Part shown: one piece after another, positions 8,551 to 25,449 of the stretch
How the letters are laid out: each line of letters starts with the position of its first letter
Position numbering within the stretch: the stretch's first letter is position 1
Source of the DNA: Lachnospiraceae bacterium
GTDB taxonomy: Bacteria; Bacillota; Clostridia; Lachnospirales; Lachnospiraceae
Assembly: GCA_024685495.1 (NCBI GenBank)
Contig: JAIKVT010000121.1
Span: 1 to 34,848 of the forward strand
Length of the DNA stretch: 34,848 nt
Direction of reading: 5' to 3'
The notes under the pieces: generated by a model
What the model was told of the DNA's origin: nothing
Database searches by the model: none
The model's input: only the letters and a program-made list of their open reading frames with translations
Program-made: the position numbers and the translations under genes

Positions 8551-9166
8551 GAACTGGAATAACAGAAGAAACGTTAAAAGTTTTGCAAGCAATTAATTCG
8601 AGCAATGATGATAAGATGGTGCAACGCTTCTTATAATATCATGAGAAGTTAGTGGATATTTATGCCTCGAAAAAAGAGAATAACAATGATGCCGGTTAGA
8701 ATCAACGGAACGGATTTTCAGTTTTCGTCAGGGAAGCATAACGAATTACAGAAGGCATTATTGAGGAATTTGCGCCTAGATTCGCACCAAATGCGGAAGG
8801 TCTTTATGTGGGAGATACAATTGCTAAAGATTTAGTAAAAAATGATGATAAATTGAAAAAGCTAGGATTTGAAATATCTTTACATGATAAGATGCCGGAT
8901 GTCGTTTTGTATAGGGAAGATTCGGATTGGATTTATTTTGTAGAGTCAGTAACGTCAGTCGGGCCAATGGACGCAAAGAGAGTAATTGAGGTTTTAGAAA
9001 TGACAGCCAATGTTTTGGCTGGGGAAATATTTGTTACAACTTTTTGGATTTTGCAACATACAAGAAATTTGCGGAGTCGTTGGCATGGGAAACAGAAGTA
9101 TGGATTGCAGATATGCCAGACCATATGATTTATCTAAATGGCGATAGATTTACGGGACCGAGATAA
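8551..9166 (+). pseudogene. decayed BsuBI/PstI-type restriction endonuclease
   Basis: Read across several frames, this stretch gives one protein: a remnant of the N-terminal domain (TGITEETLKVLQAI, then YHEKLVDIYASKK), then [85 protein letters not shown] and GDRFTGPR. These match the BsuBI/PstI restriction endonuclease family as I know it. Frame changes near 8636, 8672, 8755 and 9045 break it, so no enzyme can be made. The longest intact piece is 8808-9128. No matching methyltransferase is present, which is safe only because the nuclease is dead. The first 180 bases after it hold only a short frame from 9180 (MDLSGIDPTIGDALIELV). Confidence 0.85.
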
Positions 9167-9360
9167 GGGGGATAAGGAGATGGATTTGAGTGGGATCGAT
9201 CCAACTATTGGAGATGCGTTAATTGAGCTGGTATAAGGATTTAATTAAAAAGCCGCAATTGGGGAACCATTAACAGAGTTGTGTGCGAGTAAAAATAAAG
9301 GGGCTACTGGTAGCCTTCAAAGGAAAAAGCGGTAATATGTAAAAAGGAAGGTAGTGTTGA

Positions 9361-10962
9361 ATGAGTTTTAAATATTGGCTCCCTGATGAAAACGGGCAGA
9401 AAACAGAGTATGAAACGCAAGATAATGCGGTTATTATTGGGGCTAATGGTTCTGGTAAAAGTAAATTGGGTGCATGGATTGAGTGTCAAAATTTTGATGG
9501 TGTGCATCGTGTTGGAGCACAACGTAATCTGAATTTCAATGAAAATATTCCACTTAAAAACTATTCTGACGCGAAGAATTGGGTTTTTATGGGAGTGGTG
9601 ATGGAAATGATCATAATAAAGGGAAAAGATGGAATTGGGGGCATTATACCACTAGATTGATGGACGATTATGATAGTGTTTTGGCGGCAGTTATAGCATT
9701 AAAAAATAATGAGATTTCTAAATTCCATCAAGAGTGTAAAGATAAAGGAAATAATAAAGAGGAATGGCCTGATACACCCGTTACGTCGATTGATAAAATT
9801 CAACATATATGGGAATCGGTTTTTCCACAACGAGAACTTATAGAAGATGATTCGAAATTTTATGCAGGATTATATAAAAATGGAAATTTTAATAAGTACT
9901 CTGCGACTGAAATGAGTGACGGAAAGCGAGCAGTTCTTTATTTGGCCGCTCAGGTTTTATCTGTGCCAAAGAACAAAATGCTAATTATTGATGAGCCAGA
10001 GGTGCATTTACATCCATCTATAATGAATAGGTTGTGGAAAGAGCTAGAAAAATGTAGAGAAGATTGTTTGTTTATATATATTACTCATGATTTGAATTTT
10101 GCATCTGATTATGTTAATGCAAAAAAATTTGGATTAAAGATTATGATGGAGAGCACTGGAAACTTGAACAGATAATTGAAGAGAGTATACCAGAGAACTT
10201 GTTTTTGAGATATTAGGTAGTAGAAAAAACGTTTTATTTGTGGAAGGTGAAACAAGTAGTTATGATAGTCAATTATATACGCAAATATACCGCGATTATG
10301 TAGTCATTCCGTGTGGAGGATGTGCACAAGTAGTTGAAAGAACTAAGGCATTTAGAAATAGTAAAATATTACATGAATGCACTGTATATGGATTAATTGA
10401 TCGTGATTATAGATCAGAACACGAAATTGCTTCATTGAAGAAAAACGGTATATATGTAATAGATGTTGCTTAGGTAGAAAACGTATTCTTGGTTGAAGTA
10501 TTAATAAGTTTTGTTGCAAAACGTTTTGCGACGGAAAGAGTTGAACAAACAATAGAAAATATAAAGGGTCATGTAATCAATACTAAATTTGCGAATATGA
10601 TTGAACTTCAATTATGTCAAAGCGTGGTTGCAGAGATAAAATATCAACTGTCTTGTATAGAAATTAAAAACAAAAGTGAAGAAGAAGCGAAAAATACATT
10701 GCAGAAAGGATTGGATTCTATTTCATATAATGATATCCGAAATGAAAGAGAAATAATTTTTCGGCAGGCTTTAGAGAGCAATGATTATAAAAGTATATTG
10801 AAAATATTTAACGAGAAGGGTATTTCAAAGACAATAGGCGAGTTTATGGGCATTAAAAATGAGGAATATCAAGGAAAAGTTATTACTCTGTTAAAAGGAG
10901 AGTGTTATGAAGAGATTGCAAGTATATTGAGCGCTTATTTGCCGGATGAAATTCCAAGATGA
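9361..10962 (+). pseudogene. decayed AAA ATPase with TOPRIM/DUF4435-like C-terminal half
   Basis: The pieces at 9361-9590, 9579-10175, 10240-10473 and 10489-10962 are one broken gene of about 530 codons. The N-terminal half is an ABC/AAA15-type ATPase with Walker A IIGANGSGKSK, a signature-like SATEMSDGKRA, Walker B MLIIDEPEVHLHP and a switch ITHD. The second half begins NVLFVEGETSSYD and continues GCAQVVE and YGLIDRDYRSEHE, as in DUF4435/TOPRIM-like nuclease domains of OLD-type defence proteins. Lesions: a frameshift in the GGGTTTTT run near 9584-9590, frameshifts near 10150 and 10205, and a stop TAG at 10471-10473 where GAG is expected (VAEVENVFLVEV). It was probably an antiphage nuclease-ATPase, now inactive. 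Confidence 0.85.
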
Positions 10963-11526: not shown

Positions 11527-12684
11527 ATGCCGACAGTAAAAGTAAGTATTCAACCAGAAATTATTAGTTGGGCAATGAGCCAAACAGACGAAAGTCAACT
11601 TGGAACAGCATTATTAAGTAATATTCGGAAATGGCTTGATGGCACAAAGACGCCTACCTTCAATCAGATAGAAGAATTTAGCCGTAAATCACATATACCG
11701 CTTGGTTATTTCTTTTTGCAAAAGCCACCGGTTGAGAATATTGAGCTGTTAGAATATAGAACTATTGATAGTGTGGAACTTGCTAACCCAAGTAGAGACA
11801 TGATTGATACCATCAATGACATGAAAAGGGTACAAGATTGGATGAAAGAGTATCGCCAAGAGACAGGCTTTGATACGCTTAGAATTGTGGGTAGTTTGAG
11901 TGGGCAAAAAGAACATGAGTATATCGCAGAATGTATAAGGCAAGACATGGATTTGGATCGCGAATGGTTTAGGCAGCAAAAAGATGCAAATGATTCTTTT
12001 AAATATATTAGAGGGCAGTTAGAAGAAAGTGGTGTATTAGTAATGCTTAATGGTATTGTTGGGAAAAACACTCATAGGGCTTTGAATATTAATGAGTTTA
12101 GAGCCTTTGCGATGGTGGACGAGTGGGCACCGTTGATATTTATAAATAGTGTTGATTCTCAAGGGGCAAAAGTATTTTCTTTATTTCATGAAATTGCGCA
12201 TATATGGCTGGGAGAGGACGATCTATATAATGATAGAGGAAACAGTGAAAATGTTAACCAAATAGAGGTAATATGTAATGCTGTAGCAAGTGAATTGATG
12301 GTTCCATTTGATGTGTTTTTAAATGAATGGAATAGTATTAATGAAGGAGACGAACAAGAAACAATAACTTGTTTGTCAAGGGTTTTTAATTGTAGTAAAA
12401 CAGTAATTGCAAGAAAAGCGTTGGACATAAAAAAAATTAGTAAAAAAATGTATGATGATATAGTAGAAGACGCTATTATAGAGTATAAGACTATGAAAGA
12501 GAATAAAACATCAGGTGGCAATTACTATAATAATGCAAAAAATCGGCTTGATGGATGCTTTGTGAAAGCTCTTTGTAATAGTGTTGCATCTGGTAGAACA
12601 ACCTTTACAGAAGTATTTAGGTTAACGAATACTAGTAGAAAGACTTTTTTGGAAGTTGCTTCGAGTCTAGGAGGTGAGATTTGA
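11527..12684 (+). CDS. ImmA/IrrE family metallopeptidase with N-terminal HTH region
   Basis: The 385-residue protein has an Xre-like N-terminal helical domain (about residues 1-65; TALLSNIRKWLDGTKTPTFNQ, EFSRKSHIPLGYFF). A zinc-peptidase domain of the ImmA/IrrE (DUF955) family follows, with HEIAH at 221-225 and the later NAVASELMVPF segment that supplies the third ligand. Such proteins cleave or sequester repressors and toxins. The downstream PIN-like gene overlaps its stop by one base, and this order (ImmA/IrrE, then DUF4411) is a widespread toxin-antitoxin arrangement. It is probably the antitoxin and regulator of the pair. A strong AAAGGAGG site supports the start. Confidence 0.85.
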   Translation: MPTVKVSIQPEIISWAMSQTDESQLGTALLSNIRKWLDGTKTPTFNQIEEFSRKSHIPLGYFFLQKPPVENIELLEYRTIDSVELANPSRDMIDTINDMKRVQDWMKEYRQETGFDTLRIVGSLSGQKEHEYIAECIRQDMDLDREWFRQQKDANDSFKYIRGQLEESGVLVMLNGIVGKNTHRALNINEFRAFAMVDEWAPLIFINSVDSQGAKVFSLFHEIAHIWLGEDDLYNDRGNSENVNQIEVICNAVASELMVPFDVFLNEWNSINEGDEQETITCLSRVFNCSKTVIARKALDIKKISKKMYDDIVEDAIIEYKTMKENKTSGGNYYNNAKNRLDGCFVKALCNSVASGRTTFTEVFRLTNTSRKTFLEVASSLGGEI

Positions 12685-13202
12685 TGGGAAAACAGGAGAC
12701 ATTTCTTGTTGATTCAAATACATTTATTACACCATTTAGATTGTATTATTCGTTTGATTTAGTCCCCTCATATTGGAAAGAATTAAAAAAATATCTTGAC
12801 TCTGGAAGCATTGTAGTTCTTGATTTAGTAAAAAAAGAGATTGAGGGAGGAAAAGATGAACTGTCTGAATGGCTTTCTGGGGTGGATGATCTTATTGTTG
12901 TACCTAAAGTAACTGAACAAACAGTAAAATCGTATCAAGAAGTAATGCGGTTTGTGTCAAGTTCAGGATACTATAAGGAATCAGCGTTATCGAGTTGGGC
13001 ACCATCGAATGTTGCAGATCCATGGCTTATTGCATCAGCTAAAACAAATGGTTATACACTTGTGACTGAAGAAAAAAAGTCGGGTGGATTAAGCAAGAAG
13101 AATCCCAACAAGTATGCAAAGATTCCGGATGTAGCGGAACAATTGGGGGTCAAGACAATAAGAATTTATGACATGATGAGGAGATTAGGAATCATTATTT
13201 AA
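12684..13202 (+). CDS. DUF4411 PIN-like toxin
   Basis: The 172-residue protein opens with the PIN-type acidic motif FLVDSNTFITP (Asp10), has a second acidic cluster at DLVKKEIEGGKDEL, and carries the DPWLIASAK motif plus TLVTEEKKSGG that mark DUF4411. PIN-fold enzymes are metal-dependent RNases, so it is probably the toxin partner of the ImmA/IrrE protein. The ATG at 12684 is used because AGGAGGTGAG ends 7 bases upstream; a TTG at 12681 would also be possible. It overlaps the previous stop codon by one base. All expected acidic residues appear present, so the module may be active. Confidence 0.85.
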   Translation: MGKQETFLVDSNTFITPFRLYYSFDLVPSYWKELKKYLDSGSIVVLDLVKKEIEGGKDELSEWLSGVDDLIVVPKVTEQTVKSYQEVMRFVSSSGYYKESALSSWAPSNVADPWLIASAKTNGYTLVTEEKKSGGLSKKNPNKYAKIPDVAEQLGVKTIRIYDMMRRLGIII

Positions 13203-15443: not shown

Positions 15444-15452
15444 CCATTATTT

Positions 15453-15669
15453 TAAAGCACATTTGTTAGAAGGCGAAAGGACAGTGGACTTTCATAGTTT
15501 TAAGGTTTCTTAATTTGCAGTAAGAGAAAGGCAAGCTTTCTCTTACTGTGAATGTTGGCATAACAACATTTACAGTCTATATTTTCCTCTTCGCGCGGAG
15601 ATATCCGCGCTCAGACTCAAATATAGACTGCATATCACAAATACAGATTTTAGTAGCAAATGTGCTTTA
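15453..15669 (+). ncRNA. retron msr-msd RNA
   Basis: All the expected parts are visible. The a1 arm (15453-15465, TAAAGCACATTTG) and a2 arm (15657-15669, CAAATGTGCTTTA) are perfect 13-base complements. After a1 comes TTAG; G15469 is the candidate branching guanosine. The msr hairpins are GAAAG / CTTTC (15475-15493), CAGTAAGAGAAAG / CTTTCTCTTACTG (15518-15548) and AATGTTG / CAACATT (15551-15570). The msd is a long hairpin: CAGTCTATATTT (15573-15584) pairs with AAATATAGACTG (15619-15630), and at its tip GCGCGGA pairs with TCCGCGC around GATA (15593-15610). The reverse transcriptase gene follows 21 bases after a2. The exact boundaries of the RT-DNA cannot be read from sequence. Confidence 0.92.
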
Positions 15670-15690
15670 GAATGATGGTTGTTTAGATAT

Positions 15691-16704
15691 ATGGGATATA
15701 TAGAGGAACTTCAGATAGTATTAATTGAACAAAATGAACCGGAGGAAGATATTGATGCTGCGTGTAAATATGCAGAGAACCTTATTTCATTGGATATGCC
15801 AGTGATATTTAATAGAGAACATTTTTCATTGTTGGTTGGTCGAGAGAAGGAGGATATTTACAAGATAATATCGTCTCTTGAAAGTCATTATTACCAGCAG
15901 ATAACCATAAAGAAAAAAAGCGGTGGAGATCGTATCCTTTCTGTGCCGGCTTTAACATTAAAAGAAATTCAGAAGTGGATTTTAGATAATGTCCTTAGTA
16001 AGATGTATGTTTCTCCATATGCAATGGGTTTTCAAAAAGAAAGGTCTATAGTAACGAATGCCAAAGCACACGTTGGGAAAAAGTGCGTTGTAAATTTAGA
16101 TTTAAAAGAATTCTTTCCAAGTGTAAAGCTTGAAAAGGTCTTTAGAGCTTTTTATTATTATGGATACACCATAAGTGTTTCATATCTTATGGCTAGACTA
16201 TGTACATATAATAATGAATTACCGCAAGGAGCGCCAACAAGTCCTTATCTATCAAATGTTGTTTGCTTAAAAATGGATAAAAGGATTTCGGAACTTGCAA
16301 AAAAGTATGATGCATCCTATACAAGGTATGCTGATGATATTACGTTATCTGCAAATACTGATATATCAAATATTATACCGATTGTCGAGAAAATAGTAAC
16401 CGATGAAGGGTTTTCCTTAAATGAAAAAAAGACGCGAGTGTTATATGAATATCAAAGGCAAGAAGTTACAGGACTCTTGGTTAGTGGAAATAAGGTTAGG
16501 GTTGATAAGAAATATATTAAGAAGCTAAAACAAGAAATATATTACTGCAAGAAATATGGAGTAACTGATCATTTAAGGCATATTAGGTGTGATAAGCGTT
16601 TTTATAAGGAACATATGTATGGGAAGGCATATTTTGTTAAGATGGTAGATGCTCATCTTGGACAGTGGATTATTAAGGAATTAGATTCAATAGCATGGGA
16701 GTGA
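15691..16704 (+). CDS. retron reverse transcriptase
   Basis: The 337-residue enzyme makes msDNA from the RNA just upstream. Motifs are complete: NAKAH (123-127, the retron NAxxH signature) followed by NLDLKEFFPSV, LPQGAPTSPYLSN (about 177-189), the catalytic YADD (213-216), LNEKKTRV, and the retron-specific VTG (259-261). The C-terminus (KKYIKKLKQEIYYCKKYG onward) is the basic thumb that recognises the msr stem. The ATG at 15691 is chosen. A TTG at 15679 is in frame and possible, and neither start has a strong SD. The length is normal for retron RTs, and no lesion is seen, so the system may be active. Confidence 0.95.
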   Translation: MGYIEELQIVLIEQNEPEEDIDAACKYAENLISLDMPVIFNREHFSLLVGREKEDIYKIISSLESHYYQQITIKKKSGGDRILSVPALTLKEIQKWILDNVLSKMYVSPYAMGFQKERSIVTNAKAHVGKKCVVNLDLKEFFPSVKLEKVFRAFYYYGYTISVSYLMARLCTYNNELPQGAPTSPYLSNVVCLKMDKRISELAKKYDASYTRYADDITLSANTDISNIIPIVEKIVTDEGFSLNEKKTRVLYEYQRQEVTGLLVSGNKVRVDKKYIKKLKQEIYYCKKYGVTDHLRHIRCDKRFYKEHMYGKAYFVKMVDAHLGQWIIKELDSIAWE

Positions 16705-16713
16705 TTTGATTTT

Positions 16714-17301
16714 ATGGTTGCAGATATGGATAAACTATACAAAATGAGAGACTATGCAAATCAGCTTTCCCAAGGGATAGATCCTACATCAGGCATATCT
16801 TTTCCAGATGATTCGATTATGAATATTAGAAAAATTAAGCTTCATAATAAAGAAGTATGCAAACTTATAGACTCAATTATTATTGCGGCAAGTCGTCGTA
16901 CCTCAGCAGAAGCGAGAAAGATTCCTTTCTTTATGCTAGCAGAAGCTAAGGAGAGTTTTCAATATTTTGAAGAACATCCAGTATCTATCAGTATGTTATG
17001 TAATAGAATCAACGAGTGTGCAATGAATGGAATGTCAAAGGTTCGCCCGATGGTGATTACTCGTGGACTAACTAATTTGGGGTATCTGGAAGAAATATTT
17101 CGAGATGAAGAAGAGCGTTTTAAGGTTCCAACCGAGAGGGGATCAATGATTGGTATCAGTAAGGAAAGAAGAAAAAACCAATATGGGAATGAGTATACAG
17201 TTAATTTATATGATTTGCAGGCACAGAAGTTTGTAATTACAAATATAGAAGAAATCTTGAATGCTGCAGTAGAAAAGAAGATGTTGGATGGATTATTGTA
17301 A
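16714..17301 (+). CDS. unknown protein coupled to the retron, 195 residues
   Basis: It starts 9 bases after the RT stop, with GGGAG 12 bases before the ATG, so it is probably in the same operon. The N-terminus (QLSQGIDPTSGISFPDDSIM) matches a short motif that I recall at the start of many bacterial proteins of unknown function, often near helicases or nucleases. The remainder is helical and basic (SKVRPMVITRGLTNLGYLEE), ending in a small beta domain (QYGNEYTVNLYDLQAQKF). No catalytic motif is seen. It could be a fourth component of the retron or a partner of the helicase downstream. A search with homologues is needed to decide. Confidence 0.65.
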   Translation: MVADMDKLYKMRDYANQLSQGIDPTSGISFPDDSIMNIRKIKLHNKEVCKLIDSIIIAASRRTSAEARKIPFFMLAEAKESFQYFEEHPVSISMLCNRINECAMNGMSKVRPMVITRGLTNLGYLEEIFRDEEERFKVPTERGSMIGISKERRKNQYGNEYTVNLYDLQAQKFVITNIEEILNAAVEKKMLDGLL

Positions 17302-17451
17302 CTAAGTGAACAATGTGGTAGATGATTCCTAAGTATAAATGTATATTAAAGGTTGAAAGATGGATGTTCAATTACTTATATAAATAGTACAAGAAGTATT
17401 AAGAAGATTTGAGTATTATTTGAATAAAATCACCAAGGTAAGGGGAAATAT

Positions 17452-17785
17452 AGAATCGTTGAGGACACTTTATGGGAAATTGCGAGTCAGATAATGGACA
17501 ATAATCTGGCTAATAAATAGCTTAAATCGGATATTTTTAGAGATAGAACATATAAAAATAGGACTGTTGCCGGTCTTGATCGAATTAAGAAATTTTGCGA
17601 GAATAATAATCTGATTACCGATTATATTCAGAAGGCTGAAATACGATTTGATGATTCCTTTGCCGAGAAGAATGCAAGGGGAGCTGCTTGAATCTAGAAA
17701 ATGTCAGATGCTGTTGGATGCAGCGGATGAGATTGACCTTTCTGATACAAGGGTATTTCAGACACAGTTTTCTGAGCTGTTGTAG
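17452..17785 (+). pseudogene. remnant of an unidentified gene
   Basis: The pieces read RIVEDTLWEIASQIMDNNLA, a TAG stop, then SDIFRDRTYKNRTVAGLDRI, DYIQKAEIRFDDSFAEKNAR, then after a frame change CQMLLDAADEIDLSDTRVFQ. One protein clearly once ran through here. I cannot name it. The whole stretch 17302-17986 between the 195-residue gene and the helicase holds no intact gene. Confidence 0.45.
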
Positions 17786-17986
17786 CGATATCCATATAAA
17801 TAGTATGTTATAACTGGTTTCGAAAAGAAGAGTATACAATTAATATCTGAATCCTGTATATGGAACAAGTAGAGGATTACAATATGGATGCTTTCAAGGA
17901 AGAATATATGAACATTCAAATCTTGAGACGTATGCTTGAGGAGTTCTGAAACAATACATGAATTATTGGAGGCAGTTTGAAATCAG

Positions 17987-20719
17987 ATGCTACGAATAGA
18001 TAGGGATATATTGAATATAGATCAAGTCATTTGTTCAAATATTGATTTGATAGATTTTGAGACTGTTACTAGATCTTTGGTGGCTCAGAATTTGCTCAGC
18101 TACTCACGTAATCTTGTTGAGCACATTGCTGTAAAACTGTATGGAGAGGGAAGAGATATCGTTGTAGGTTTGCAAACAATCAAGCCTGCAATGGAATATA
18201 TTAAACGGGATAATAGATATCAGTTTTTACGGAGTTTTCATGGGTTTCTTCAAGAATCAGAGTCTCATTATACTCCTGAAAATGAAGGTGCTGAGCGCCT
18301 TGCGCTAAAATACTATCAATATTATTTACTCATAAAGGATTTTATGAAGAAGCAGTTTCAAATGGATATTCTTCATAATCTTGATAAGTTCCCACTGGAC
18401 ACGGATAAAAGCATTCAGGAATATCATGAAAAAATAGCAGATAGACTAAATGTTTTAAGGCCTATAAATGATTTAAACCGAGCACAGAGACTGTATGTTC
18501 ATAAGGTCGTGCCTTTTATTGCGCTGGAAAAGGTTTATTTCGAGGTAACGCTCACACCGGCATATGATACAACAAGTAAATTTGATCGGTTCGTGTGCTA
18601 TTCGTCATTTTGGGTGCCGCCGCATTATTCTTTAAAGGCGGATATATACCACGATGATATCATTCTTGATGATAAAAAGATGCCAATTAATATCCTTTCT
18701 GGTTATATGGTTTCTATAAGGCCGTGTGAACTAAATAATTATGCCAGTATCTTTGGCATTGACATAGATATCAAGGCTAACCATGCGGAATATCGTGGAA
18801 TGATGACATATCTGTCAAAATCCGGAGCCAGTTTGCTGGAAATAGTTCTTTCGTCGGATGGGGAATATAGGCGGATTAAACGGGAAATGTTTTCAAGGAG
18901 TCAGGTGCATCATTTTGAAAACATTTTGGATAAGAGTAGAGCGTTGATATTAAGCGGCAGAGCAGGATCAACAACAATTAGATACTTGCTTCATACTATG
19001 AATAATAAAGTTATTAAGAATCAGCGTAGTGATGAGGGTAATGGGTATCTATCCGGACTAAGGCTAAACTATGGTTGTATTCCTTTCGACACGATGCCAT
19101 TTGCATCTTCTTTGATTCAGCATATTCCAGGGAATTCTGCTCTTTTTGGAAGTGTTGAGAAAGAAGGAAGGGATTGTGAATTCTTTGCCAGCTATATTCA
19201 GTCGAACATGAATATTAATTCCTGTTTGTATACGAAGGAAACAGATATTGTTGAAAGATTTCCTGATGTAGATAAACTGATAGCGGCATTTAATGATAAG
19301 CTATATAAACCAAAGCATTGGAGGAGACGAATAGAAAAATTTGGCAAAAACCTCTATGTTGTAGAAGCGTTTGATAATACAAAGAAGGTAATCGAAAAGC
19401 TTCAAGAATGTTCTCAAAGCGGTATGCAGGGGTATGACGCAGCAATATCTTCGTGGATCGATTCACAAACTGACATTGATAGCGAAGAAAAGAAATATAT
19501 CCTTCTTGATATGTTTACAAAATCTTGTGTGGCTTTAATATATGGCGCGGCAGGAACGGGGAAAACATATCTAATTAACCATATTTCTCAGTTTTTCGGC
19601 GACTATGAAAAGTTGTATTTGGCAAATACAAATCCAGCGGTTGAAAATCTTAAAAGGAAAGTGAATGCGCAGAACTGCAGGTTCTCAACAATAAAGAAGT
19701 ATCTTATGTCACAGTGTGTCCAAACGGAATACGATATGTTGATCATGGATGAGTGCAGTATGGTTAGCAATGCTGATATGAATGCGATTTTGTCGAAGAC
19801 AAAATATAAAATGATGATCCTTGTGGGAGATACATATCAGATAGAGGCTATAAATTTTGGGAATTGGTTTTCCTTTGCAAGATACTTTATACCGAAAGCA
19901 GCATGGTGGGAGTTGGAAAATCCATATCGTACCAAGGATGAAGGACTTTTGGAATTGTGGAGAAAGGTGCGACTGTTAGAGACGGATCTTACGGAGCATA
20001 TAGTAAGTCATAGATATTCTTCAAAATTGGACTCTACTGTTTTTGATAGGCGAACAGAGGATGAAATTATTCTGTGCTTGAATTATGACGGATTGTACGG
20101 GATTAATAATATTAACAGATTTCTGCAGAATAATAATCCCAATAAAGCGTTCTACTGGGATTTGTGGACCTTCAAAGTGGGAGATCCTATTCTTTTTAAC
20201 GAATCTGAAAGATTCACACCGGTTCTATATAACAATTTGAAGGGTACCATTGTAGATATAGAAGCAGATAATGTGGCAGAAGAAATTTGGTTTTCGATAG
20301 AGGTTGATAAGCCATTGATGGCTATTGATGCTGACAATGTCGGATTGGAATTGCTGGAACCCTTAAATTCTGGCAAGTCAGTAATTCGCTTTAAGGTGAA
20401 AAAGAAAAAAGAATCTGACGATGACAGGGACTTTGCAGATGATACAGATATCCCATTTCAGGTTGCCTATGCCGTATCCATACATAAAGCCCAAGGTTTA
20501 GAATATGATTCTGTAAAGGTGATAATAACAAGAGATATTGATGAAATGATCACACATAATATTTTCTATACTGCAATAACACGGTCGAAGAAGTATTTGA
20601 AAATATTCTGGAGTCCAGAAACAATGCAGAGTGTCATAAGTAAATTTGAAACGATGAATGTAAGAAATGACGCGAATATTTTTTCTGCACAAAGCGGAAT
20701 CAAAATGCATAGGTTGTAA
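17987..20719 (+). CDS. SF1 (RecD/UvrD-like) helicase with a large unique N-terminus
   Basis: The 910-residue protein has helicase motifs in its second half: Walker A GAAGTGKT (about 520-527), Walker B MDECSM (about 587-592), motif III-like LVGDTYQIEAI (about 611-622), and UvrD-C motifs VSIHKAQGLEYDSVKV (about 830-845) and FYTAITRSKKYLKIFW (about 860-877). Residues 1-500 match no family I recognise. The order fits RecD-type 5'-3' DNA or RNA helicases. A defence role as sensor or remodeller of foreign nucleic acid is inferred from the island context. The start is fixed by an in-frame stop at 17978; the GGAGG at 17968 is 14 bases away, which is long. No lesion is seen. Confidence 0.8.
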   Translation: MLRIDRDILNIDQVICSNIDLIDFETVTRSLVAQNLLSYSRNLVEHIAVKLYGEGRDIVVGLQTIKPAMEYIKRDNRYQFLRSFHGFLQESESHYTPENEGAERLALKYYQYYLLIKDFMKKQFQMDILHNLDKFPLDTDKSIQEYHEKIADRLNVLRPINDLNRAQRLYVHKVVPFIALEKVYFEVTLTPAYDTTSKFDRFVCYSSFWVPPHYSLKADIYHDDIILDDKKMPINILSGYMVSIRPCELNNYASIFGIDIDIKANHAEYRGMMTYLSKSGASLLEIVLSSDGEYRRIKREMFSRSQVHHFENILDKSRALILSGRAGSTTIRYLLHTMNNKVIKNQRSDEGNGYLSGLRLNYGCIPFDTMPFASSLIQHIPGNSALFGSVEKEGRDCEFFASYIQSNMNINSCLYTKETDIVERFPDVDKLIAAFNDKLYKPKHWRRRIEKFGKNLYVVEAFDNTKKVIEKLQECSQSGMQGYDAAISSWIDSQTDIDSEEKKYILLDMFTKSCVALIYGAAGTGKTYLINHISQFFGDYEKLYLANTNPAVENLKRKVNAQNCRFSTIKKYLMSQCVQTEYDMLIMDECSMVSNADMNAILSKTKYKMMILVGDTYQIEAINFGNWFSFARYFIPKAAWWELENPYRTKDEGLLELWRKVRLLETDLTEHIVSHRYSSKLDSTVFDRRTEDEIILCLNYDGLYGINNINRFLQNNNPNKAFYWDLWTFKVGDPILFNESERFTPVLYNNLKGTIVDIEADNVAEEIWFSIEVDKPLMAIDADNVGLELLEPLNSGKSVIRFKVKKKKESDDDRDFADDTDIPFQVAYAVSIHKAQGLEYDSVKVIITRDIDEMITHNIFYTAITRSKKYLKIFWSPETMQSVISKFETMNVRNDANIFSAQSGIKMHRL

Positions 20720-20780: not shown

Positions 20781-21308
20781 ATGGCATAGAGTCAAAACAT
20801 AGAATATAGGGAAAGCTGGCGAGAGGAATACCGGAAGTGGCTTTGTGGTTTTGCCAATACTCAAGGCGGCACCAGCCACATCGGTATCGATGATGCCGAG
20901 AAAGTTGTCGGCGTGAAGGATGTCAAAAAGTTAATGGAAGATATTCCGAATAAAACCCAGTCGGGATTGGATATCGTTGCAGATGTGAATAAGCATATGA
21001 AGGATGGGAAAGACTATCTTGAAATAAAAGTTGTTCCGAGTTCATTTTCCATTTCCCGGCGCTCAAGAGTGCTCTTATAGATTAGCCCAAAGCACCAAAG
21101 CACGGAAAAGCACGGTGCTTTGGACGATGCAATGGTGCTTAGGATTGTTGAAATTTTGAAGGAGCAACCTGACATTTCTCAGGAGGCATTAGGCGAAAGC
21201 TTGGGCGTAACACGACGAGTTGTACAAAAGTTTATTAAAGTTCTTAAAGAAACCGGTCGCATTGAACGTGTTGGTGGTAAGCGTTATGGTCATTGGAAGG
21301 TAAAATAG
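20781..21308 (+). pseudogene. decayed AlbA_2/Schlafen-like regulator
   Basis: A good SD (CTGGAGG) precedes an ATG at 20781, but codon 3 is TAG. After it the AlbA_2 domain is plain: NIEYRESWREEYRKWLCGFA, NTQGGTSHIGIDDAEKVVGV, IKVVPSSF, ending at a TAG near 21078. The same frame then continues into a winged helix (21120-21308; DISQEALGESLGVTRRVVQK, then RIERVGGKRYGHWKV). The middle ATPase-like half present in the intact paralogue at 5157-6737 is missing. It is therefore an internally deleted pseudogene with two stop codons. The winged helix piece could still be read from TTG 21120 as a 62-residue protein, but no SD supports that. Confidence 0.8.
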
Positions 21309-21325
21309 GCTATTAAGTAGATATA

Positions 21326-23041
21326 CTATCTCTCGATATCTAATATACGCTTTCTTTGATGCTCAAGGCTAGGCTCTTGTAGCATATTATCAACATTACG
21401 TTTAATTGTATAGAGTCGTTTTTCTTCATTTTTGGCAGATTTATAGCGCGCACGGATAGGTTGTTGCTTTTTGATGAGCTTATCCCTTGTGGATTTTAGC
21501 GTGTTTAATGTAGGAGTCTTGCCTGGAGCAACTTTTATATAGGCTCGGGAGGGCAGAGTGCCTTCCTCAATATGCTCTTTTATGTATCGCTGGGCTGCTT
21601 CATAGAGCACGATTTCCGTCCTGTGTTCAAATCTAAATCTATCTTTGTTTCTTGCCTTCAAATAGGCATTATATACGTCCTTATTGACAAGATATTGACC
21701 GGTGTAGTGTATCTGCTCATTAAGTGCATCTATGCTATTTTCAGAATTCTTCAGAGCAGAACGAGCGTTGTATAGCTTATCGCGGGTATTCTGATATGCA
21801 TTATCTAAGGCTTCTCTGCTACTAATACCATGTTCTTCCATGTATATGATAGTGTCTGCCATATCTTTAAGGTTATTAATCTTAATACCACGGTCGATAG
21901 CACGGTTGGTAGTTGTGATGGCAGATATCTGTAAATCACGCACGAACGGAAGCCTTGTATCCATAGTAAATGCTGGAGGATACTTGATGTTTCGTCTTCT
22001 TACAGAATCGAGCTTCTCAAGGTTAGATGTTTTACGGTCAGGTGTGCTATGTTCAATAGGAACCCTATTCTTGGTGGCTTCATTAGTATTGTTCCTAAAA
22101 GTTTTGTTAACTCTATTATCAGCATTTGCCCTAGTCCTATTCTTATTCCTAGCATTTTCCTTAAAACGAACACGCAAAAAATCTTCCGTATAATCCGTTC
22201 CCAGAGCCCTTCCACGTATAGCCTTCTTATAATTAGGCAGGATATAACTGTATCTTCCACGACTAATTTTAAATGTGATATTATATTTGCTTTTAAGAAT
22301 ATGGGCAAACTCTTTTTCAGATCTGCTTTTGGCGAAAGCGTACTCTATAGCAGAGCGCAGGATATCCTTGTTAGTTCTGAAGCTTTCCCCTTTAGCTTCT
22401 TTTCCACGTTCTTTAGCCCAATATTCCTTCTCTGTAACTCTTTTCTTGGCAGGCTTCTTTAAGTCTACCTGATGTAACTTCTTCCGCTTGCATACGTCCA
22501 TTAGGTCGATTTTAAGGTATTCAAGGTATTTATCTGTAAGATGATGCTTATAACCGGCACGGCAGTCAATTTTTCTCTCCATAAAGTAACGTCTTTTAAC
22601 ATCTCGTTTTCTCAAACTATTAAAGATTATATGCACATGTATGTTTCCACTTCCATGTTCACCGTCATCATGAGTACAGACGATTGCCTGGTGCCCGGGA
22701 AAATTTCTTTCGGCGTATTCCATTCCGATTTGCTGTGCGTCCTTCATAGTGAGCTTGCCTTCAATAGCATCCTTCGGATCAAAGCTTATGATGTAATGGT
22801 GGGATTTTATATCGCCGTATTTCTGATTCTTGTGGTATCTATTATTAAGCATTCTACATTCGGCATCGAAAGTGGATACATTACAGTTAAGAGAATCAAT
22901 TATAAAATTTTCGCGCATAATAAGACGACCGTTCTCATCTTCAATAGAACGATTAGTAAGTCTGTCTTGTTCATACATAAGATATTCAACTGCTCTCCCA
23001 TAGTTTGCACTTTTTGATGATAAATGTTTTAAGATTGCCAT
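21326..23041 (-). CDS. MobA/VirD2-type relaxase
   Basis: The 571-residue protein nicks the transfer origin and pilots the strand in conjugation. An N-terminal relaxase domain (about 1-200) carries HHYIISFDPKD (81-91) and the metal-binding THDDGEHGSGNIHVHIIFNS (His124, His135, His137); candidate catalytic tyrosines are Tyr14 and Tyr20. The rest is a basic, coiled, helical C-terminus. It follows MobC on the minus strand with one base between them, so they are one operon reading away from the oriT-like region. No DNA transfer channel genes occur here, so the element would rely on a helper conjugation system. It fits the Firmicutes MOBP group. Confidence 0.92.
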   Translation of the reverse strand: MAILKHLSSKSANYGRAVEYLMYEQDRLTNRSIEDENGRLIMRENFIIDSLNCNVSTFDAECRMLNNRYHKNQKYGDIKSHHYIISFDPKDAIEGKLTMKDAQQIGMEYAERNFPGHQAIVCTHDDGEHGSGNIHVHIIFNSLRKRDVKRRYFMERKIDCRAGYKHHLTDKYLEYLKIDLMDVCKRKKLHQVDLKKPAKKRVTEKEYWAKERGKEAKGESFRTNKDILRSAIEYAFAKSRSEKEFAHILKSKYNITFKISRGRYSYILPNYKKAIRGRALGTDYTEDFLRVRFKENARNKNRTRANADNRVNKTFRNNTNEATKNRVPIEHSTPDRKTSNLEKLDSVRRRNIKYPPAFTMDTRLPFVRDLQISAITTTNRAIDRGIKINNLKDMADTIIYMEEHGISSREALDNAYQNTRDKLYNARSALKNSENSIDALNEQIHYTGQYLVNKDVYNAYLKARNKDRFRFEHRTEIVLYEAAQRYIKEHIEEGTLPSRAYIKVAPGKTPTLNTLKSTRDKLIKKQQPIRARYKSAKNEEKRLYTIKRNVDNMLQEPSLEHQRKRILDIER

Positions 23042-23042
23042 A

Positions 23043-23405
23043 TCACTTCTCCAATAATTCGTTAATCCTATTCGTTAATTCTCGTAAGTCATCCGCGCGA
23101 GAAATCAAATCGTTAGCTATCGGTTCTGTGAAATCATATCCACTATTTAGATGATGAGCGATTTGATTAAGATTGATTCCAATTTTATGAAATTCTTCTG
23201 TGAGTGCTGAGGCTTTTGCTAGTTCGGACTTATTGTTTTTTGAAATCACAACCTTTCCGTTTTTGATTTGCTCTCTTACAAAATCCGAAATCGATATTTT
23301 TGATTTTCTTGATTTAGATTTCAAATTATCTAATTCCTGATCGGTCAATCGAAAGGTAATTCTGTTTCCTCTTTCTTCAGATTTTTCTTTCCTTGGTCTA
23401 CTCAT
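23043..23405 (-). CDS. mobC: MobC-type relaxosome protein
   Basis: The 120-residue protein has a ribbon-helix-helix-type start (RITFRLTDQELDNLKSKSRK, then SISDFVREQIKNG) and the C-terminal MobC motif (IGINLNQIAHHLNSG). MobC helps melt oriT and guides the relaxase. An AGGAGG ribosome binding site lies on the minus strand just before the ATG (plus-strand complement at about 23412-23418). It is the first gene of the mob operon and borders the hairpin-rich region that it should bind. Confidence 0.9.
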   Translation of the reverse strand: MSRPRKEKSEERGNRITFRLTDQELDNLKSKSRKSKISISDFVREQIKNGKVVISKNNKSELAKASALTEEFHKIGINLNQIAHHLNSGYDFTEPIANDLISRADDLRELTNRINELLEK

Positions 23406-23434
23406 TTTGAATTCCTCCTGTGTGAAAATTGATT

Positions 23435-23610
23435 ATCGACGGAGTCGATTTGTGCGAAGCACCATTGCTGTTTTCTGCGAAGCAGAAAACCATTATCGGG
23501 TCTGGGGTGATAACCCCAGCAAGATTTGCCGAAGGCAGACAAAACGAGCGTAGCGAGTTTTTGTCTGACGCAGGCGAATCTTGCGTTAACTAAGTAGTGC
23601 CCTTTATATA
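23435..23610. other. candidate oriT with stacked hairpins
   Basis: Five stem-loops lie side by side: ATCGAC / GTCGAT (23435-23449), GTGC-gaa-GCAC (23452-23462), GTTTTCTGC-gaa-GCAGAAAAC (23470-23490), CTGGGG / CCCCAG (23502-23519) and a large one pairing GCAAGATTTGCC (23519-23530) with GGCGAATCTTGC (23573-23584) that also holds CAGACAAAA / TTTTTGTCTG. Just after it is CTAAGTAGTGCCCTTT, which resembles the TAAGTGCGCCCT nick region of IncQ-type origins. Position upstream of mobC and the relaxase fits an oriT. The nick site itself is a guess. Confidence 0.55.
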
Positions 23611-23691
23611 TAGAAATTTCAGAGCACTTATTTTTACTTCTTTCAGATGTTATTTTGAATTAGTAAAAATTCATTGCTTTAAATTTCTATA
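23609..23691. promoter_or_regulatory. interrupted palindrome 1, mob-xis region
   Basis: TATAGAAATTT (23609-23619) pairs with AAATTTCTATA (23681-23691), and TTTTTACT (23631-23638) with AGTAAAAA (23662-23669). The unpaired stretch on each side between the two stem segments is 11 bases long on both sides. Such balanced spacing suggests protein binding on both arms rather than a simple terminator. It lies between divergent mob and xis genes, so it could be an operator or an excision/transfer protein site. Confidence 0.55.
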
Positions 23692-23719
23692 AAATGAGGG
23701 GCAAAAAATCCCTTTACTA

Positions 23720-23801
23720 ATAACAAATCTAGAACACTAAAAGTAAACATCTCTGAAAAATTATTTGAAAATGTTTACTTTGACCTTCGTAGATTTGTTA
23801 T
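23720..23801. promoter_or_regulatory. interrupted palindrome 2, mob-xis region
   Basis: ATAACAAATCT (23720-23730) pairs with AGATTTGTTAT (23791-23801), and AAGTAAACAT (23741-23750) with ATGTTTACTT (23771-23780). The intervening segments are exactly 10 bases on both sides. The plan is the same as in the palindrome at 23609-23691 and the inner arms share AGTAAA / TTTACT. It ends just before the GGAGG of the excisionase gene. Confidence 0.6.
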
Positions 23802-23821
23802 ACATGGGAGGTTTATAAGAT

Positions 23822-24040
23822 ATGGTCAATAAGGAAAACAATTTGGTTCTACCTTGGTGGAAGAAATATACGTTGACATTGAATGAGGCATCGGAATATT
23901 TCGGAATCGGATACAAGAAGCTTAAACTTTTTGTTCAAGAACATAAGGATGATGACTTTGTTTTGTGGAACGGTAACAGAGCGTTAATCAAACGAGCACA
24001 GTTTGAAAAGTACATGGATGAAAAGATGAATGTAATTTAG
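23822..24040 (+). CDS. xis: Tn916-type excisionase
   Basis: The 72-residue basic protein has the winged-helix start of MerR/Xis-like proteins (LTLNEASEYFGIGYKKLKLF) and the later wing (VLWNGNRALIKRAQFEKYMD), as in the excisionases of Tn916-like elements. These bend the DNA at the element's end so that the integrase can excise it. GGAGG lies at 23807-23811. It precedes the integrase gene, as is usual in this family, and follows the palindrome pair. Confidence 0.85.
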   Translation: MVNKENNLVLPWWKKYTLTLNEASEYFGIGYKKLKLFVQEHKDDDFVLWNGNRALIKRAQFEKYMDEKMNVI

Positions 24041-24065
24041 CCTGATGACAAGGTTCTTATAGAGA

Positions 24066-24147
24066 AAGAGCTGGTTCTGTGTTATGCTATTTGTACATAG
24101 TTATATAGGACTATGTATCTATAAAAGCATATAGAATACGGCTCTCC
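24066..24147. promoter_or_regulatory. long imperfect inverted repeat before the integrase
   Basis: An inner hairpin, TACATAGT (24094-24101) with ACTATGTA (24110-24117), is nested in a longer imperfect palindrome whose ends AGAGCTG (about 24067) and CGGCTCT (about 24140) nearly match. There is no T tract. The integrase SD (AAGGAG) follows shortly. It could control integrase expression or be a binding site for the recombination proteins. Confidence 0.4.
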
Positions 24148-24171
24148 GAATAAGAAAGGAGACAACGTAGA

Positions 24172-25449
24172 ATGAGCGAGAAAAGACGAGATAATAAGAA
24201 TCGTATTTTACGCACAGGGGAGAGCCAGGATGCGGACGGACGCTATAGGTTTAGATATACTGACTCTAATGGTAAACGTAAATCGGTTTACAGTTGGAGA
24301 TTGGTGGCGACTGATAGTCTTCCGTACGGTAAAAGAGACAACTTGCCTCTGCGAGAACAAGAAAAAACTATTAACAGAGATCTTGAGGATGATATTCTTC
24401 CTGATGGTGGTGGACTTACAGTTCTTCAGCTGTCGAAGAAATATGTTGCAACAAAAACCGGAGTTAAGCATACGACGAGAGCCGGATATGGAACAGTACT
24501 CAGATTATTGGAAAGAGATCCATTTGGCGCTAAGAGAATCGATAGAGTAAGACTCTCTGATGCCAAAGAATGGTTGATTAAATTACAGCAGGTGGATAAG
24601 AAAAGCTATTCTTCTATTCATACTATTAGAGGAGTGCTTCGCCCAGCGTTTCAGATGGCTGTCGATGATGACATACTTCGGAAGAATCCATTTGATTTCC
24701 TGATAGCTACTGTTTTGGTAAATGATTCTGTAACAAGGGAAGCTATTTCGAGAAAGCAAGAAAGGACATTTCTTGAATTTGTTAAGAATGACTCACATTT
24801 CTGTAGATATTACGATGGCTTTTACATTCTTTTTAATACGGGGATGCGTATTTCGGAGTTCACAGGCTTAACCATATCAGATGTCGATATGGAGAACAGG
24901 ACGATTAACATTGACCATCAATTACAGAAGACAGGGACATTAGTATATATTAATACAACTAAAACCAATGCCGGGAAGAGAGTTATTCCGATGCAGGATG
25001 ATGTGTATGAGTGCTTTGAGAGAATCCTTGCAAGAAGACCAAAGTTAAAGGTGGAGCCGATGATTGATGGTTATTCCGGATTTCTTTGGTTTGACAAGGA
25101 TGGGAAGCCGATGGTTGCGCTGCATTGGGAGAAGTACTTTCAGCATGCGGTTGATAAGTATAATAGCATTTATCGTGTACAGCTTCCGAGAATTACACCG
25201 CATGTGTGCCGTCATACATATTGTTCGAATATGGCTAAGTCGGGAATGAATCCAAAGGTACTGCAATACCTTATGGGTCACTCTGATATAAGTGTTACGT
25301 TGAATACGTATACTCATCTGAAGTTCGATGATGCCAAGGACGAGATGGAGAAGATGGCTAAGAAACAGGCCGAGGCAAATGAAGAGTATAAGAAGTTGGG
25401 CATAAAAGATAATGAGCATTCGGTAATAAAATTTGGTGCGAATGGCTGA
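24172..25449 (+). CDS. int: tyrosine integrase, Tn916 family
   Basis: The 425-residue recombinase has an N-terminal arm-binding region like that of Tn916 Int (about 12-80; GESQDADGRYRFRYTDSNGK), a SAM-like core-binding domain (about 85-185) and a catalytic domain with Arg226 (NTGMRISEF), His344 and Arg347 (TPHVCRHTY), His370 (MGHSDIS) and nucleophile Tyr380 (LNTYTH). It excises and integrates the element by site-specific recombination. AAGGAG is 12 bases before the ATG. The 3' end points at the chromosome-side boundary, so the attachment site should lie between 25450 and about 25700. No lesion is seen. Confidence 0.95.
   Translation: MSEKRRDNKNRILRTGESQDADGRYRFRYTDSNGKRKSVYSWRLVATDSLPYGKRDNLPLREQEKTINRDLEDDILPDGGGLTVLQLSKKYVATKTGVKHTTRAGYGTVLRLLERDPFGAKRIDRVRLSDAKEWLIKLQQVDKKSYSSIHTIRGVLRPAFQMAVDDDILRKNPFDFLIATVLVNDSVTREAISRKQERTFLEFVKNDSHFCRYYDGFYILFNTGMRISEFTGLTISDVDMENRTINIDHQLQKTGTLVYINTTKTNAGKRVIPMQDDVYECFERILARRPKLKVEPMIDGYSGFLWFDKDGKPMVALHWEKYFQHAVDKYNSIYRVQLPRITPHVCRHTYCSNMAKSGMNPKVLQYLMGHSDISVTLNTYTHLKFDDAKDEMEKMAKKQAEANEEYKKLGIKDNEHSVIKFGANG

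Follow-up and report, generated by a model that had tools for sequence, protein, structure and literature searches.

The window, by which we mean the whole 34,848-nucleotide stretch analysed (contig JAIKVT010000121.1 of Lachnospiraceae bacterium assembly GCA_024685495.1), carries on its forward strand a retron, a gene for a 195-aa protein, a stretch of DNA with no intact gene and a gene for a 910-aa helicase, in that order (Table 1). According to the ORF listing of the window the helicase gene is one uninterrupted ORF, and its product is made up of an N-terminal module (residues 1 to ~450) and a helicase core (~448–888).

Table 1 Positions of the features discussed, in window coordinates, with the basis for each call.
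Feature	Position	Strand	Basis
SIR2-like/nSTAND NTPase gene, 862 aa	1839..4427		
Fragments of BsuBI/PstI-type restriction endonuclease and AAA_21 protein	8808..10175		
ImmA/IrrE-type M78 peptidase and DUF4411 genes	11527..13202		
Retron PRTase effector, 303 aa	14204..15115	+	PRTase_III-A 3.5e-60; PRTase-CE 1.3e-22
Retron winged-helix protein, 111 aa	15108..15443	+	WH_III-A 6e-15
Retron ncRNA	15444..15678	+	fold energy; a1/a2 inverted repeat
Retron type III-A RT, 341 aa (YADD)	15679..16704	+	RT_III-A 4e-136; RVT_1 2e-28
195-aa protein related to RecQ C-terminal tail; retron fourth gene	16714..17301	+	RecQ relation; gene order at L090
685 bp without intact gene; pieces of it with weak coding signature	17302..17986	+	frames, codon score
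910-aa SF1B helicase, PDC-S53 family	17987..20719	+	ORF call, PDC-S53 HMM, RecD2-like 448-888, PHROG_325, models
N-terminal helical bundle, residues ~1-160	17987..18466	+	helices 3-21, 29-53, 62-74, 76-93, 99-124, 141-154
Five-stranded beta domain, residues ~167-243	18485..18715	+	strands 168-242; OB/SSB-like, suggestive
Remnant of Schlafen AlbA_2 / HTH gene	~20795..21308	+	SLFN_AlbA_2 3.5e-10; HTH_11 on 21120-21305
Relaxase, MobC/NikA-like protein, Tn916-type integrase	21326..25449		

The PADLOC HMM for PDC-S53 matched the helicase from end to end (E = 0, 1171 bits; residues 1–905 against positions 1–896 of 900 in the profile), while PHROG_325 (“Dda-like helicase”) covered residues 3–886 and Pfam placed an SF1 helicase at ~511–871. 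The conserved motifs I–VI of SF1B helicases (RecD/Pif1/Dda) were recovered by alignment, Pfam and fold matches; they are intact and were invariant across an alignment of 18 proteins from several phyla: motif I at residues 519–526, with K526 as the Walker A residue, motif II (DECS) at 588–591, motif III (GD..Q) at 614–618, motif V at 831–840 and motif VI (YTAITR) at 861–866. Judged by family membership alone, the enzyme would translocate 5′–3′. The best folds for the full-length model in Foldseek were RecD and RecD2 (E 1e-16), with further matches to Pif1/Dda folds. By sequence, the protein is thus an intact member of PDC-S53, a catalogued candidate phage-defence family. PDC entries are candidates found via “guilt-by-embedding”, most of which still await experiments (PMC12988326, PMC10855318). 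Our literature search found no paper naming PDC-S53.

Relatives ~40–86% identical over nearly their full length were found in Bacillota, Actinomycetota and Bacteroidota, and on plasmids and phages. Comparison with the closest of these, at locus L016 (86% identical), gave dN 0.08 and dS 2.4, a dS which is saturated and makes the ratio approximate only, and constraint was alike on both halves of the protein; these values point to strong purifying selection. The preliminary description of this DNA had called the gene an intact 910-residue SF1 helicase that was likely under selection, and on both counts it holds. A deep sister group (L085, L087; tree branch 2.28), whose helicases have ~1100 aa and a longer N-terminus, is possibly a second related family.

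The N-terminal half had been described as having no recognised domain, and we also found none: residues 1 to ~450 matched no Pfam family, PDB sequences searched with a profile built from 23 N-termini gave nothing credible (best E 0.23) and Foldseek gave no significant match for this half (all E at least 0.009). AlphaFold modelled it fairly confidently (pLDDT 80, pTM 0.74) as a helical bundle (1–155), a five-stranded beta domain (168–242) and a helical region (246–345), the model being less certain from after residue 345 to ~450. Foldseek matches of the small domain were recurrently to OB folds, including SSB, Rim1, RPA, TTC5-OB and phage SSBs; these OB/SSB targets were numerous, with TM (target) up to ~0.5, but at E of at least 0.02, which is below significance, and the model is suggestive of an OB-like ssDNA-binding domain at residues ~167–243. 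A RecD-family accessory domain, which the preliminary description had named as a finding that would refute its reading, was absent among the N-terminal fold matches listed, and we assign the full-model match to RecD/RecD2 to the motor half because sequence places the relation there. The conserved polar residues of the N-terminus contain no recognisable nuclease signature. Many N-terminal residues, like the helicase motifs, were invariant in the 18-protein alignment, so that the N-terminus is integral to the family and is no chance fusion. In our searches this ~450-residue module was seen only in PDC-S53.

The genes upstream of the helicase are predicted to form a type III-A retron with none of its parts missing: genes for the PRTase, the winged-helix protein and the RT and, 5′ of the RT, a structured ncRNA with an a1/a2 repeat (AAAGCACATTTG at 15454–15465, complement at 15657–15668). 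The 235 bp between the winged-helix and RT genes had a folding energy of −99.8 kcal/mol (z −11.1), equalled by no shuffle; an Rfam search for retron RNA gave no match. This set of genes and RNA agrees with the composition given for type III retrons in PMC12548924.

The other intact ORFs nearby include the DUF4411/ImmA pair, the SIR2/nSTAND gene and a 526-aa AlbA_2 gene. The ImmA/IrrE-type M78 peptidase gene overlaps the DUF4411 gene in a toxin-antitoxin-like arrangement. For the 862-aa protein, which combines a SIR2-like and an nSTAND NTPase domain, the PADLOC match was only weak (Dsr1, 7e-6). According to the preliminary description most neighbours of the helicase had decayed, which is right in part: remnants lie directly downstream (the AlbA_2/HTH gene) and in the restriction endonuclease and AAA_21 fragments, which are decayed defence genes, whereas the retron and the other neighbours are intact. 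The presence of a relaxase (MobA/VirD2-like), a MobC-like protein and a Tn916-type integrase beside the defence genes implies that the island is mobilisable, and it looks like an integrative mobilisable element. An integration hotspot common with genome G298 was considered, as both loci are near a LigB-AMMECR1 gene, and was rejected since that one gene alone is in common.

We compared the neighbourhoods of the helicase relatives. On the same strand, and often only 5–90 bp downstream of the preceding operon, the helicase follows: BrxHI-PglZ-BrxA at L016; type I RM at L018, L020 and, separated from it by small ORFs, L118; type III RM at L120; a DUF3427/PLD type IV enzyme and NUDIX at L080; Gabija at L081, where Avs4 lies downstream; IetAS at L082; a PDC-S08 candidate at L074; and an AAA_5 gene and a second gene at L077, the latter read as McrC, which makes the locus McrBC-like. 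A defence neighbour lay upstream in 10 of the 18 non-phage loci (window included), a count made without a matched control which therefore denotes association with defence loci and no specific joint function; at the remaining 8, no defence gene could be recognised next to the helicase on its strand. The association with known defence systems that characterises PDC-S53 was thus seen both in the window, with its type III-A retron, and at the loci of relatives. It should be noted that adjacency inside defence islands is by itself no proof of joint or even of defence function.

DNA identity between helicase genes came to an end no more than a few codons from either end of the ORF, covering 0–2722 of 2733 between the window and L016 and 1–2713 between L018 and L072, and likewise between L018 and L031, although this boundary may stem partly from saturated non-coding flanks. 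Sisters in the tree also differ in their neighbours (retron in the window vs BREX at L016; Gabija at L081 vs RM III at L120). Identity confined to the ORF, together with sisters in different surroundings, is the pattern expected if defence loci exchange the gene as a single-gene cassette, and these comparisons indicate that one ORF is the unit that moves between loci with unrelated defence systems. All-against-all blastp found no upstream partner common to the chromosomal helicases outside the phage clade. These neighbourhoods bear on the reading that the retron operon includes the helicase as an accessory fifth member, or that the helicase generally helps whichever DNA-targeting system lies upstream by acting on its DNA products or ends. 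Its position directly behind BREX, RM I/III/IV, McrBC-like, Gabija and retron operons, most of which act on DNA, agrees with such a role; nevertheless, we consider it unlikely, given the 685 bp of dead DNA between retron and helicase in the window, the lack of a helicase at all other III-A retrons examined and the many relatives which are alone on plasmids or phages.

One clade of helicases, with support 100/100, is found in phages and viral contigs. In every member examined, a partner of 278–464 aa ends within ~80 bp upstream of the helicase, and a ~70-aa HTH-like gene often follows. The upstream ORFs of this clade are L075:7146-7979 and those at L076, L109 and L122–L133. The C-terminus of the partner is conserved and its N-terminus variable; in several members the N-terminus, and only this part, resembles LmuA (1e-12 to 1e-26). 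PHROG_325 probably contains the phage-borne members of PDC-S53. That the helicase might serve replication or recombination of a plasmid or phage, and not defence, fits the annotation of phage copies as Dda-like or RecD-like, the relatives on plasmids and the relaxase and Tn916-type integrase of the window island. We nonetheless regard this as improbable: in two annotated phages the helicase cassette, which includes the partner and a small repressor-like gene, runs opposite in direction to the replication genes, like accessory cargo, and chromosomal copies lie behind defence operons.

The 195-aa gene begins 9 bp past the retron RT. Its product contains a QLSQGIDPTSG motif, which the preliminary description had linked with helicases, and a basis for this link was found: the C-terminal tail of RecQ helicases, beyond the HRDC domain, is related to its C-terminal half. 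Other relatives are stand-alone genes with unrelated neighbours. At L090 (genome G236) the order PRTase-WH-RT-198 aa is repeated with no helicase alongside (RT 66% and fourth gene 48% identical to the window); the fourth gene was absent from 7 other related RT loci. Because L090 repeats the four-gene order without a helicase, and no helicase adjacency was found elsewhere, we take the fourth gene to be part of the retron, and the retron and 195-aa gene are a system separate from the helicase. The 685-bp gap itself contains no gene-length ORF, and its codon score was slightly above that of shuffles. Searches for its source, as protein pieces and as DNA, gave no meaningful match in 150 family genomes, 21 relatives, plasmids or Pfam; nor did it resemble the BREX genes preceding the L016 helicase. 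The proposal of a two-gene system formed by the 195-aa gene and the helicase, with the 685 bp between them a later insertion, draws on their common strand, their proximity and the RecQ relation, but is very improbable given L090 and the absence of any adjacent pair when ~45 relatives of the 195-aa protein and ~40 of the helicase were inspected; it fails the co-occurrence check that the preliminary description had named, and the insertion suggested there was not borne out. The retron with its RecQ-tail-like fourth gene is a minor, separate lead.

Taken together, the ORF is quite probably a single-gene candidate antiphage helicase of PDC-S53, carried as cargo of a mobilisable defence island, a confidence which belongs mostly to the assignment and is lower for the mechanism. 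The motor is intact, the N-terminus is conserved and the gene is mobile and island-bound; from these features and its surroundings we infer an antiphage action. In a possible mechanism, the N-terminal helical/OB-like module would engage ssDNA or a junction arising from phage replication or from cleavage by a neighbouring system, and the motor would then translocate along the bound strand, strip or unwind it and so keep the invader's DNA from being replicated or repaired. Where the helicase belongs to the phage-borne clade, a dedicated partner protein encoded upstream may receive the signal. A wider proposal, which we hold to be rather doubtful, sees in PDC-S53 an immune helicase of general, plug-in use whose N-terminus is a new fold that senses DNA: cells would place it 3′ of unrelated DNA-targeting operons (restriction, BREX, Gabija, retron) to attack their DNA intermediates, and temperate phages would carry a version wired to a dedicated partner whose N-terminus can be exchanged. 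If the helicase does aid restriction-type systems, one gene could strengthen many defence systems. As far as we could find, the family is catalogued yet undescribed, and the relative-less ~450-residue module, the ORF-bounded exchange and the phage clade with a fixed upstream partner are testable points.

Compared with known systems, the window retron is like other type III-A retrons in its gene order of PRTase, WH, ncRNA and RT, and differs by the extra fourth gene (195 aa, RecQ-tail-like), found in one other genome. Hachiman HamAB and Lamassu are analogous in combining a helicase or ATPase sensor with a separate effector, and the N-terminus of the phage-clade partner resembles LmuA, which in Lamassu is paired with the SMC-like LmuB; in contrast, the window helicase has no partner gene. 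HamB is an SF2 helicase, of a different superfamily from the SF1B helicase of the window. The Dda-like PHROG_325 matches the protein over nearly its full length, whereas the solved structure of T4 Dda (439 residues) is without the N-terminal module and matches far less of the helicase model. The motor domain, motifs and fold are common with the SF1B helicases RecD and RecD2; however, against RecD2 (TIGR01448) the window helicase scored 121 bits where the cut-off is 500, with a match starting at residue 448 and profile position 261, so that it has neither the score nor the N-terminus of RecD2, and neither sequence nor fold search related its first 450 residues to the N-terminus of RecD/RecD2. 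With PDC-S53 (PADLOC-DB 2.0, a single-gene candidate) no difference was seen: both halves match over the full length, and known defence systems precede or surround the gene, as predicted for the guilt-by-embedding class (PMC12988326, PMC10855318). Overall, the gene is real and a useful lead, although its family is already catalogued and the retron beside it is ordinary apart from one unusual extra gene.
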